Source: Aeromicrobium sp. Root495 (GTDB taxonomy: Bacteria > Actinomycetota > Actinomycetes > Propionibacteriales > Nocardioidaceae). Taken from it: 64,000 nt of DNA. The translations under genes were made by a program, and so were the position numbers. The notes beneath the pieces are model-generated. The model saw only the letters and a program-made list of their open reading frames with translations. It was not told the origin of the DNA and ran no database searches. Numbering within the stretch: the first letter of the stretch is position 1; every line of letters begins with the position of its first letter. Location of the stretch: the NCBI RefSeq assembly GCF_001426755.1, contig NZ_LMFJ01000002.1, positions 348,038 through 412,037 of the forward strand, read 5' to 3'. Below are positions 13,660 to 62,644 of this stretch, piece after piece.

Positions 13660-13679
13660 TTAGGGTTGCCTTACCTTAA
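13660..13679. promoter_or_regulatory. DtxR/IdeR-type iron box
   Basis: TTAGGGTTGCCTTACCTTAA. The first 19 bases match the DtxR/IdeR consensus at 14 of 19 positions. The site is directly before the ribosome site (AAGGAGG, 13680-13686) of a siderophore-interacting gene, so repressor binding would cover the promoter or early transcript region. Confidence 0.65.
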
Positions 13680-13692
13680 GAAGGAGGCGACC

Positions 13693-14514
13693 GTGGCCAA
13701 GGCCAGCAAGCTCGTGAAGCCGGACCGCACGCGACTCATCAAGCTGCAGGTGCTCCGCACCGAGCGGATCTCCACCCACTTCCAGCGGGTGACCGTGGGT
13801 GGCGGCTCCATCGAGCACTTCGTGCCGATGGGCTACGACCAGTGGTTCCGGCTCTTCATCCCCACGACCGACGACGCGGCGCTCGACCGGCTGCCCGACA
13901 AGGTCAGCACGATCGGCTACCTCAAGTACCTGCGCATCAACGCGGAGATTCGGCCCGTCCTGCGCAACTACACGGTCCGGGCGTACCGGGCCGAGGGTCC
14001 GCAGGGCCCGGAGATCGACATCGACCTCGTCCTGCACGGAAGCGCCGCCGACGGCACGGCGGGACCGGGCTCCTCCTGGGCCGAGACGTGCGTCGAGGGC
14101 GACTGGATCGGGATCGTCGACGAAGGTCTCGTCTTCGACCCGGGTGTGGGTCAGGACGACGTGCTGCTCGTGGCCGACGAGACGGGCGTGCCGGCCGTCG
14201 CCGGTGTGCTCGCGTCTCTGCCCGACGACGCCCAGGGCCTCGCGGTCCTGGAGGTCCAGGCCGACGACGACGTGCTCGACCTGCCCGGTCCGCCCGGGGT
14301 GGAGCAGCGCTGGATCGTCCGTGGGCCCGATGCCGTACCGGGTGCCCAGGCCCTGGCCGAGGTGGAGAAGCTCGACGTCCGACCCACGTGGCACGCCTTC
14401 GCGGTGGGCGAGTCCGGACTCGCGACAGGAACCCGTCGCCACCTCGTGGCCCGGGGCCTGGCGAAGGACCGGGTCAACTTCTGCGGCTTCTGGAAGATCG
14501 GCGTCGCGGGCTAG
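13693..14514 (+). CDS. Siderophore-interacting protein (ferric-siderophore reductase family)
   Basis: 273 aa from GTG 13693. This start is preferred over the upstream TTG at 13666, which lies inside the iron box; AAGGAGG is 6 nt before the GTG. FAD-binding motif RNYTVRAY (about residues 89-96), IDIDLVLHG (about 107-115) and the C-terminal FCGFWKIG (about 263-270) identify the family. Expected to reduce ferric siderophores in the cytoplasm. Followed 30 bp later by a paralog on the same strand, probably one iron-repressed unit. Confidence 0.9.
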   Translation: MAKASKLVKPDRTRLIKLQVLRTERISTHFQRVTVGGGSIEHFVPMGYDQWFRLFIPTTDDAALDRLPDKVSTIGYLKYLRINAEIRPVLRNYTVRAYRAEGPQGPEIDIDLVLHGSAADGTAGPGSSWAETCVEGDWIGIVDEGLVFDPGVGQDDVLLVADETGVPAVAGVLASLPDDAQGLAVLEVQADDDVLDLPGPPGVEQRWIVRGPDAVPGAQALAEVEKLDVRPTWHAFAVGESGLATGTRRHLVARGLAKDRVNFCGFWKIGVAG

Positions 14515-14544: not shown

Positions 14545-15351
14545 GTGCCCAGGCTGCGACGAGAGACCACGACGCACGTCGCCGTCCTTCGGGCCCTCAC
14601 CGTGGCGGCGGTCCGTGACCTGACGCCGGGCATGCGACGCATCACGCTGGCCGGTGAAGAGCTCCGCGAGCGCGAGCACGACGGGGTGGTCCTTCCGGCG
14701 TTGAGCTCGCCGGGCTTCGACGACCACGTCAAGGTCTTCGTGCCGTTGCACGGTGCCGAGCTCCCGGTCCTGCCCCACCAGCGGGTCGACGGGCTCGACT
14801 GGACCACCGAGGGCACCCGGCCGACGGCGTCGGACTACACACCGCGCCGGATCGACCTGCCGGCCGGCGAGATCGACCTCGACTTCGTGCGGCACGGCCA
14901 CGGGAACGCAGCCGGGTGGGCCGAGCGGGCCACCGTGGGTGCACCGGCCTGGATCGCGGGCCCGACCATCGGGCAGGCGCTTCCACACGACGTGGACTGG
15001 TTCATGGTGGCGGGCGACGAGACGGCCCTCCCGGCCATCGGGCGGCTGCTCGAGGAGCTCCCGGCCGGCGCCCGGGTGCAGGCCGTCATCGAGGTGTCCG
15101 ACGCGGGCGACGAGCAGGAGCTCCCGACACGGGCCGACGCCCACGTCACCTGGTTGCACCGCGACGGCGCGGAGGCCGGTGCCACGACCTTGCTCGCCGA
15201 TGCCGTGCGCGACGCCACCTGGTGGGACGGCGAGGTCTACGCCTGGATGGCGGGCGAGTCCTCGGCCGCCCGCGCCGTGCGCACGTTCTGGCGCACCGAG
15301 CGTCACGTCCCGCGCGACTGCCTCGACGTCTCCGGCTACTGGCGCCGCTGA
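14545..15351 (+). CDS. Siderophore-interacting protein, second paralog
   Basis: 268 aa. The FAD-binding segment reads SDYTPRRIDL (about residues 94-103), where the family Tyr-Thr pair is kept, then IDLDFVRHG (about 111-119). The NAD(P)H domain ends DVSGYWRR at the C-terminus, the standard family ending. GTG start 30 bp after the previous gene, without its own iron box, so probably co-transcribed. Three such proteins in one window imply different siderophores or redox partners (inference). Its stop is at the edge of a folded intergenic element. Confidence 0.88.
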   Translation: MPRLRRETTTHVAVLRALTVAAVRDLTPGMRRITLAGEELREREHDGVVLPALSSPGFDDHVKVFVPLHGAELPVLPHQRVDGLDWTTEGTRPTASDYTPRRIDLPAGEIDLDFVRHGHGNAAGWAERATVGAPAWIAGPTIGQALPHDVDWFMVAGDETALPAIGRLLEELPAGARVQAVIEVSDAGDEQELPTRADAHVTWLHRDGAEAGATTLLADAVRDATWWDGEVYAWMAGESSAARAVRTFWRTERHVPRDCLDVSGYWRR

Positions 15352-15471
15352 CGGTCTGCCACGGTCCCACGGCACGCTGGGGTGTCGGCGCGACGCCCCA
15401 CGGCAAGTATCGACTCCGCACGGCTTGCAGGCCGTGGGGAGTCAAGTTCTCCGTGGGACCGTGGTGAACCG
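15352..15471. other. Intergenic element predicted to fold as a three-way junction
   Basis: The whole gap between two convergent stops is self-complementary. A perfect 14-bp outer stem (15359-15372 with 15451-15464) extends outward through two G-T wobbles to CGGT/ACCG (15352-15355 with 15468-15471). Inside are two hairpins: TGGGGTGTCG/CGACGCCCCA (15378-15387 with 15391-15400) and GACTCC..CACGGC/GCCGTG..GGAGTC (15412-15424 with 15431-15443, one G-G mismatch, loop TTGCAG). There is no U-run on either strand. It could be an elaborate bidirectional terminator, a structured RNA or a REP/MITE-like element. Confidence 0.55.
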
Positions 15472-15472
15472 G

Positions 15473-16795
15473 TCAGGAGCCGGTGACGAGCCACGCGTCG
15501 GAGCGCTGGCGGAGCCACAGGGTGACCAGCCGCGCCGCGATGTAGCCGCCGTAGGCCACCCACAGCCAGGTGAAGCTCGCCCCGAGGTGTCCGACCAGAA
15601 GGGCCAGCGGGACGTAGGGGACGAGGGCGAGGAGGCCGGCCCACGCGAGGTACACCGCGTCGCCGGCCCCGATGAGGATGCCGTCCAGCACGTAGACCAC
15701 GCCGGCCGGCACCTGCACGAGAGCCGCCACGAGGAGGGCCGGCGCCAGGACGTCGGCCACGGCCCCGTCCCCCGGAGCGAAGACCGACCCGGCGAAGGGC
15801 ACGAGGCCGGCCATGACCACGGCGGCCACCGCGCCGCAGCCGAGCCCCCAGCCGACCATGCGACGGGTCAGGTCGCGGGCCAGCGTGCGGTCCCCCGCCC
15901 CCAGCGCATGACCCACGAGGGTCTGCGCCGCGATGGCTATGGCGTCGAGGGCGAAGGCGAAGAACGTCACGAGCGCGGTCACCACCTGCTGCGCCGCCAA
16001 GGGCGCGTCGCCGAGCCCCGCGGCGACGGCCGTCCCCAGCACGAGACCGGCCCGCAGCGCCAGGGTCCGCACGAACAGCGGCACCCCGTCGAGGCCCGCG
16101 CGCAGGACGGCGCCGGCCCGGACCCGCAGCGGTGCGCCCGAACGACGGGCGCCGCGGACCACCACCGCGGTCAGCCACAGCGCTCCGAACCACTGCGCGA
16201 GCACCGTGCCCACGGCGGAGCCGGTGATCCCCCAGCCGGGCCGGTCGGCGACGCCGTGGACGAGCGCGAGGTTGAGGACGACGTTCAGGAGGTTGGCCAC
16301 CACCGTGACGACGACCGGGGTGCGTAGGTCCATCACGCCGCGCAGGGCCCCCGTGGCGGCCAGCGCCACCAGGAGCGCCGGCACTGCGAGGGAGGACACG
16401 ACGAGGTAGCGCTCGGCCCGGTCGGCGACGGCCGAGGAGCTCGAGAGGGCCTGGGCGAGCGGGCCGGCCGACGCCGCCAGCGCCCCACCCAGGACGACGC
16501 CCAGCCCGCCCGCCAGCCAGATGCCGCTCACGGCGTAGGAGTACGCGCCGGCGGTGTCGCCCGCTCCCCGCCTCCGGGCGACCGTCGCGGTGCTGCCATA
16601 GGCGAGGAAGACACACAGACCCACGACGGTGGACAGGACGACCGACGCGGCGCTGAGGCCGCCGAGCGAGGAACGCCCGAGGTGCCCCACGATCGCCGTG
16701 TCCGCCAGCAGCATGAGCGGCTCGCTCACGAGGGCGAAGAAGGCAGGGACCGCGACGGCCACGATCTGGCGGTCCGTGCTCCGAGGACTAGGCAC
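15473..16795 (-). CDS. MATE family multidrug/metabolite efflux transporter (DinF-like)
   Basis: 440 aa, about 12 membrane segments in two homologous halves. The MATE opening IVAVAVPAFFALVSEPLMLLADTAIVGHLG (residues about 10-39, quoted in two parts: IVAVAVPAFFALVSEP and LADTAIVGHLG) is clear. Uses an H+ or Na+ gradient to expel drugs or metabolites; actinobacterial DinF-type substrates are unknown. The GTG at 16795 has GAGGTGG upstream. A longer frame reaching 17026 adds 77 residues of non-membrane, low-quality sequence from the dnaB upstream region and is not credible. Confidence 0.9.
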   Translation of the reverse strand: MPSPRSTDRQIVAVAVPAFFALVSEPLMLLADTAIVGHLGRSSLGGLSAASVVLSTVVGLCVFLAYGSTATVARRRGAGDTAGAYSYAVSGIWLAGGLGVVLGGALAASAGPLAQALSSSSAVADRAERYLVVSSLAVPALLVALAATGALRGVMDLRTPVVVTVVANLLNVVLNLALVHGVADRPGWGITGSAVGTVLAQWFGALWLTAVVVRGARRSGAPLRVRAGAVLRAGLDGVPLFVRTLALRAGLVLGTAVAAGLGDAPLAAQQVVTALVTFFAFALDAIAIAAQTLVGHALGAGDRTLARDLTRRMVGWGLGCGAVAAVVMAGLVPFAGSVFAPGDGAVADVLAPALLVAALVQVPAGVVYVLDGILIGAGDAVYLAWAGLLALVPYVPLALLVGHLGASFTWLWVAYGGYIAARLVTLWLRQRSDAWLVTGS

Positions 16796-17215
16796 CTCGG
16801 ACCACCTCGACCTGTGGATGACCGGGCTTCCGGGCGTGTCGTGTCGACATGTCGATGCCGCCGACGGGGTCGAGCCGGAAGATGTGAATCTTTCTTCGCT
16901 CCACATGCTGTGTGCGACGTCTGCGCAGGTCAGAGGGGGTAGACGATCGTCCAGCTCTCCTTCGTCCACAGGTTGGTCCACCAGGTGTGCACAGGCCCCA
17001 CGGCGTTTTCCACAGAACCACGCCAACTGTCCACAGGGGGTGTGCGAACCGGGCTTTCATCGCTCTCCGCACCCGCCTAGTGTGACGCGTCGGAGGCGAT
17101 CTCCGCGCGGGGGCGCGAGAGTGTCCGAAGTCCTCCGTACCGTGCTGAGCAGGTGCCGTGCACGGGTCCCGGTCCGGGCCAGCCCGGACCACTGTCGATG
17201 AGGAGCTGTCTGCCT
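16796..17215. promoter_or_regulatory. Non-coding region upstream of dnaB with DnaA-box-like sites
   Basis: 420 bp without a credible gene. It holds four 8-of-9 matches to the DnaA box (TTGTCCACA or TTATCCACA): TCATCCACA (16813-16821, minus), TCGTCCACA (16962-16970), TTTTCCACA (17006-17014) and CTGTCCACA (17027-17035), the last three within 74 bp. A weaker CTGTGCACA lies at 16986-16994. The density suggests DnaA binding, perhaps regulating dnaB; it is not the canonical oriC, which lies at dnaA-dnaN. Confidence 0.4.
17171..17190 (+). other. Hairpin in the dnaB leader
   Basis: GGTCCGGG (17171-17178) and CCCGGACC (17183-17190) form a perfect 8-bp stem with a 4-nt loop, 26 nt before the dnaB GTG. 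No U-run follows; an attenuator or mRNA-stability role is possible. Confidence 0.45.
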
Positions 17216-29418: not shown

Positions 29419-29568
29419 ACGGGGTCGGCGAGGGCGAGTAGACTGAGCGTGTCGTCGCGACTGGCGCTGAGGTGGACACCCACCAGGGAGCGACGACGAG
29501 CACGACGTCGGGACCGTCCGCCTGGGCCCCGTGTCAGCCCGCTATCCATGCTGACCGGAGGAACAGAG

Positions 29569-62530: not shown

Positions 62531-62644
62531 GGTCGGTTTACCACGGGGGGTTGGTAGACCGACCCATACCTCCGGAAGCTTCCGTAGGGATGGGTCAGGT
62601 TGCCGAGGGGAGGACGGTTTGCATAGTTACCGTGGTAAACCGTC
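62531..62644. other. Structured intergenic region with nested inverted repeats
   Basis: Three overlapping pairings: a 12-bp stem 62531-62542 with 62553-62564 (GGTCGGTTTACC arm, one G-T); a 36-bp near-palindrome 62561-62596 centred on CGGAAGCTTCCG; and a 13-bp pair CGGTTTACCACGG (62534-62546) with CCGTGGTAAACCG (62630-62642). The first and third exclude each other, as in attenuators. GTTACC-GTG-GTAAAC (62626-62640) also looks like a repressor site. No gene is present. Confidence 0.5.

Follow-up and report, generated by a model that had tools for sequence, protein, structure and literature searches.

What occupies the gap between two convergent genes of Aeromicrobium sp. Root495, and why does all of it fold? 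The question arises from the window, a 64,000-nt stretch of DNA corresponding to G000:C2:348038-412037, where G000 denotes this 3.58-Mb Aeromicrobium genome. According to the sequence and its open reading frames (ORFs), the stop-to-stop gap measures 121 nt (15352-15472): the TGA of the forward-strand gene ends at 15351, and TCA, the stop of the reverse-strand gene, begins at 15473. The upstream neighbour (14545..15351, +) encodes a siderophore-interacting protein (Pfam SIP and FAD_binding_9), and the convergent downstream neighbour (15473..17026, -; start codon uncertain) encodes a MATE efflux protein (Pfam MatE). Both genes lie outside the folded element, and their stops abut it. The ORF 13666-14514, adjacent to 14545-15351 on the same strand, appears similar to the latter (siderophore-interacting) by sequence.

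The initial annotation described the gap as a three-way junction with stems of 14, 10, and 12 pairs and proposed a structured RNA, a REP/MITE-like element, or a complex bidirectional terminator as its possible nature.

The folded gap and its copies in the genome

The minimum-energy fold of the gap was indeed a three-way junction, with 15, 10, and 13 pairs in the outer stem and the two hairpins, close to the annotated numbers. The folding energy was -83.1 kcal/mol on the forward strand (z -8.6; none of 200 shuffled sequences folded as well) and -76.7 kcal/mol on the reverse strand (z -8.1). The outer stem is formed by 15 continuous pairs between 15357..15371 and 15452..15466 and is extended, beyond a 1-nt mismatch, by four pairs between 15352-15355 and 15468-15471. 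The left arm is the terminal inverted repeat of the element, as indicated by the fold and by identical ends in other copies; the right arm, defined by the fold and the alignment, carries the terminal CCGTGGTGAACCGG immediately preceding the stop codon of the convergent gene. The first internal hairpin (15378..15400, +) has 10 pairs and a 3-nt loop, with a few further pairs extending its stem, and alignment with other copies placed it in the window copy only. The second internal hairpin (15412..15443, +; 13 pairs with one internal mismatch) is the core hairpin, common to all copies of types A and B described below. An Rfam scan of the window returned no family match for the gap; the sole match in the window was a ZMP/ZTP riboswitch (RF01750) at 29447-29534 (+), with 54.6 bits and E 4.1e-6.

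A search for further copies in the genome was positive. Scanned for the terminal motif CCGGTTYACCACGG with at most one mismatch, G000 gave 55 sites vs. 4 for the reversed pattern, and reading of the single copies gave about 33 dispersed hairpin-rich elements of three sequence types, A, B, and C. The terminal arms are common to the three types and the core hairpin differs. Type A, to which the window gap belongs, is related to type B, and the core of type C is GACCCATMCCTMCGGAAGCTTCCGKAGGKATGGGTC. The copies span about 80-122 nt and end in CCGGTTTACCACGG when aligned; full copies of about 90-122 nt have both arms, and half copies have one. The gap itself (15352..15472; G000:C2:363389-363509) is a full type-A copy, as judged from the ORFs, the fold, the copies elsewhere, and the empty sites of two relatives. 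The terminal-motif scan also located a second element in the window, a full type-C copy of 111 nt (62533..62643), which is 94.5% identical to a copy in the opposite orientation at G000:C1:403480; such identity suggests recent copying. Another copy, of type B (G000:C1:1846673-1846754), adjoins one of the nuclease genes described below and carries three direct 20-nt units GACGCCCCACGGGAAAGTGT before its hairpin.

The gene context of 20 copies was determined with a simple codon-composition gene caller. Nineteen of them were located at most 16 nt from a stop codon. Eleven lay between convergent genes, five between tandem genes, and four had one side not called; none of the 20 was found between divergent genes or within a called gene.

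Comparison of the copies revealed compensatory changes in the core hairpin. In 15 copies of types A and B, 95% of its positions were paired, four pairs were changed on both sides, and the covariation score was reached by none of 500 shuffles. Covariation was weaker in the outer stem, where the arms are almost invariant and covarying changes were limited to the inner three pairs. This pairing cannot separate a function of RNA from a function of DNA, since the arms of a mobile element would remain complementary even if no RNA folding were involved. When 84,980 species genomes, own genome excluded, were searched for the core hairpin as an exact pattern, none matched, because the cores are genome-specific. 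The type-B consensus retrieved only fragments from 57 relatives, and the terminal motif alone revealed carriers among congeners. A stand-alone structured RNA is disfavoured by the absence of an Rfam match and by sequence types that differ between genomes while the architecture stays constant.

AbiEi-like genes between inverted copies of the element

Several congeners contain pairs of inverted end motifs with a spacing of about 1.25 kb; in G000, the interval contains the gene of a putative AbiEi-like nuclease. The first such gene (C1:2698870-2699856) encodes a 329-aa protein with an AbiEi_4 winged-helix N-terminus and is bracketed by type-C copies. The second (C1:1846784-1847758), 56% identical to the first, is bracketed by type-B copies; each gene is thus enclosed by inverted copies of its own element type. 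The partner gene sits outside the window. For type A, to which the window gap belongs and which is close to type B, no bracketed nuclease gene was identified in G000.

The N-terminal half of the protein matches AbiEi models, and by the models of PADLOC the bracketed proteins would be labelled AbiEi. In the C-terminal half, residues of the PD-(D/E)XK catalytic type are conserved: E206, D239, and E250-x-D252-G-x-x-K256 are invariant in sets of 47 and 12 homologs, as is a further motif, E274-K-x-R-E-D-x-x-R282. Profile comparison linked the protein to homologs that pass the cut-off for DUF559 (hhalign probability 99.5), which we take to be a member of the PD-(D/E)XK superfamily. The invariant residues, this link, and the superfamily membership together point to a PD-(D/E)XK-like C-terminus. 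In the close homologs, Pfam detects the nuclease domain only weakly. A sequence-profile search of solved structures (PDB) gave a single chance match (E 0.6), NCBIfam had no match to the protein, and no relative of it was found in viral contigs.

Neither of the two bracketed genes has an AbiEii partner. The only AbiEii toxin gene in G000 (C1:954554-955207) adjoins an AbiEi homolog at C1:955692-956072, in a locus spanning C1:954554-956072. The flanks of this homolog contain no inverted repeat (bracketing score 22, the score being that of the highest-scoring inverted repeat that a gene's left and right flanks form together).

Candidates for a conventional mobilising enzyme were also sought. The Y1 transposase family PF01797 had zero matches in the whole G000 genome, while the controls were positive. 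Among inverted ends enclosing more than 200 bp within about 3 kb, no conventional transposase was found in G000; they enclose only the two nuclease genes and a 2.4-kb stretch between a third inverted end pair (C1:51913 / 54513), which carries genes of a MarR-like regulator, an MFS transporter, and a small protein.

Bracketing and dispersal beyond this genome

The bracketing score was computed for 47 homologs within the genus (30 close and 17 intermediate). They scored 43-150, and 46 of the 47 exceeded every control. The controls were 46 window genes with 250/300-bp flanks (maximum 31) and, for 700-bp flanks, two sets of 120 random 950-bp segments, one from the window (maximum 44) and one from related contigs (maximum 45). 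Among 20 distant homologs, 15 exceeded all controls and five had no repeats above control. Outside the genus, in other Actinomycetes, 22 of 26 homologs scored 46-145, the lowest three (46-49) being marginal, and four had no repeats above control; shuffled flanks reached at most 40. A cross-locus control for the outside-genus set contained two very high values, which we guess to come from orthologous loci, and was not relied on.

The bracketing repeats differ in sequence from lineage to lineage. Strong folding is common among them: the median z of 42 gene-flanking repeats was -4.5, and 33 of the 42 were below -3. With the flanking elements joined as one query, the flanking element proved to be dispersed in all 16 Aeromicrobium genomes tested, and among the matches listed for these genomes most were to the genome's own element. 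The same dispersal was found in 10 of 10 genomes from other genera of Actinomycetes. The numbers of matches, 7-63 per genome, overstate the numbers of copies, as palindromic elements match both strands.

Site comparison and the origin of the copies

Two relatives carry the same convergent gene pair as the window without the element. In an Aeromicrobium MAG (first protein 72% identical), the stops are arranged as TGA-GCC-TCA, and in a Propionibacteriales MAG (first protein 70% identical), as TGA-CGG-TCA, with 3 nt between the stops in each case. Either this lineage therefore acquired the window element, or two losses removed it elsewhere. CGG is present at both edges of the window copy, and the empty sites of the relatives at this one locus hold CGG or GCC; in this single case, the CGG might be a target duplication. 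With about 33 copies in the genome, their defined ends, and these empty sites, the REP/MITE-like option of the initial annotation was borne out.

We consider it probable, at roughly 0.7, that the copies are short non-autonomous mobile elements mobilised by the AbiEi-like nuclease, in a manner analogous to REPIN-RAYT with an unrelated enzyme. The gap would be one such non-autonomous copy, composed of terminal inverted arms and one or two hairpins, and the autonomous form would be the nuclease gene between two inverted copies of the same element. The nuclease would recognise its own element type, with the winged helix at the duplex ends and/or through the folded hairpins (cruciform or single strand), and would cut there. 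The element would then be copied, by transposition or by break-induced gene conversion, to new positions shortly after stop codons or to sites already occupied by another type. Copies would survive mainly between convergent genes, because an insertion there breaks nothing, and may there end transcription on both strands.

Sites in close relatives showed that the type of element can vary at one place. The flanking DNA of three genomes, G005, G028, and G065, is about 92-97% alike, with one flank at 84%. At two orthologous sites (L332 and L337), G005 and G028 have one type and G065 has a different type of its own; at a third (L333), G005 and G065 share one type and G028 has the GGTTTACCACGG type. 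At each of the three sites, the type matches one present in that genome. In a fourth genome, G059 (about 80%), the L333 site consists of 9 nt only. The differing types may reflect either insertion hotspots or the conversion of one type into another. Tandem arrays, in which palindrome and hairpin units alternate, were observed at L332, L338, and L339 of G005, and the number of tandem units at L332 and L338 differs from that in relatives. At one locus of G065 (L352), the two flanks come from different copies (L336/L334), which lie about 17 kb apart in G005: the left flank is that of one copy and the right flank that of the other. This junction is probably the product of recombination between repeats.

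Such sites bear on a homing-like process, which we regard as rather unlikely as the full account. The nuclease would cut sites holding another element type or hairpin-prone gene ends, repair would copy its own type in, and the copies would then be converted sites instead of insertions in the classical sense. The presence at three orthologous sites of different types, each matching one found in that genome, fits this process; insertion hotspots would also give different types at one site. Conversion of existing elements alone is insufficient for the sites where relatives have no element (3 nt at the window locus, 9 nt in G059), unless these are losses. Within the preferred reading, mobilisation by the nuclease, site conversion is a possible part of the pathway.

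A conventional transposase could instead have spread the copies as ordinary MITEs, two of which happen to enclose the AbiEi-like gene as a passenger. The small size of the copies, their terminal inverted repeats, their dispersal, and the occurrence of half copies all fit a MITE, and the enzyme activity of the AbiEi-like protein is putative. We nevertheless judge this improbable: the inverted ends in G000 enclose just the two nuclease genes and the stretch with the MarR-like regulator, the MFS transporter, and the small protein, and a passenger would hardly be the same enzyme family, repeatedly bracketed across genera by unrelated repeats.

If the copies were bidirectional terminators or structured 3' UTRs that selection retains and duplication multiplies, no dedicated enzyme being involved, this would account for a location right after stops and between convergent genes, for strong folding of both strands, and for the compensatory changes in the core hairpin. 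The hairpins, however, have no clear adjacent U-tract, relatives with the same gene pair have empty sites, close relatives differ in sequence type at the same site, and the repeats are linked to one enzyme family across the whole class. Terminators as the primary explanation thus have little to commend them; a role in bidirectional termination may still arise as a by-product of their location. It is very improbable that the flanking repeats are operators of AbiEi-type autoregulation and the dispersed copies their regulon: the N-terminal half matches AbiEi models and, AbiEi of Streptococcus agalactiae is described as binding inverted repeats in its own promoter (PMC7319586), but the repeats here flank the gene on both sides, the copies sit at gene 3' ends (of the 20 examined, 19 are at most 16 nt from a stop and none separates divergent genes), the AbiEii partner is absent, and the homolog that does have AbiEii is without repeats.

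Among known systems, the mobile elements proposed here most resemble REP/REPIN sequences, short palindromes scattered through the intergenic space on the downstream side of genes, in many cases between convergent or tandem ones, which flank the single-copy gene of a cognate enzyme and come in genome-specific types matched to that enzyme (PMC3733652 and PMC8266576). The likeness to REPIN-RAYT is one of architecture only, in that dispersed elements also flank a cognate enzyme gene. RAYT (TnpA_REP) is a Y1 HUH tyrosine transposase, whereas the protein here combines AbiEi-like sequence with a PD-(D/E)XK-like domain; REPs are single hairpins of 20-40 nt with a GTAG or CGTC tag, whereas the present elements measure about 80-120 nt and have long inverted arms. 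The GTAG tag was absent from the aligned element copies. CGTC-tagged REPs, which had no dedicated transposase according to a 2013 survey (PMC3733652), are likewise dispersed palindromes without a known Y1 partner; they differ in architecture, with 8-9 bp stems and the CGTC tag, and are reported from Proteobacteria and four other phyla. MITEs share the small size, the lack of coding sequence, the dispersal in many copies, and the terminal inverted repeats, but G000 yielded no candidate parent, an insertion sequence that shares the ends and encodes a conventional transposase. AbiE type IV toxin-antitoxin systems share the AbiEi-like N-terminal half and the binding of inverted repeats by AbiEi, but the bracketed genes are solitary, have no AbiEii, and encode a C-terminal nuclease-like domain between bracketing repeats. 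The Y1 enzyme of REP-RAYT, the conventional transposase between matching ends of a MITE (in G000), and the toxin partner of AbiE are all missing. In open PMC papers, we found no description of it and nothing linking AbiEi with DUF559 or with such repeats.

We lean towards a wider proposition, with somewhat less assurance than towards the mobilisation proposed above: across Actinomycetes, solitary AbiEi-like PD-(D/E)XK-like proteins may mobilise genome-specific hairpin repeats, as an independently evolved counterpart of REPIN-RAYT able to swap types at a site. REP-like repeats are common in bacteria and have so far been linked to Y1 tyrosine transposases (PMC3733652). If true, the present proposal would explain widespread proteins now labelled as AbiEi antitoxins or defence proteins and would provide a testable route by which hairpin repeats arrive at gene ends in actinobacterial genomes.
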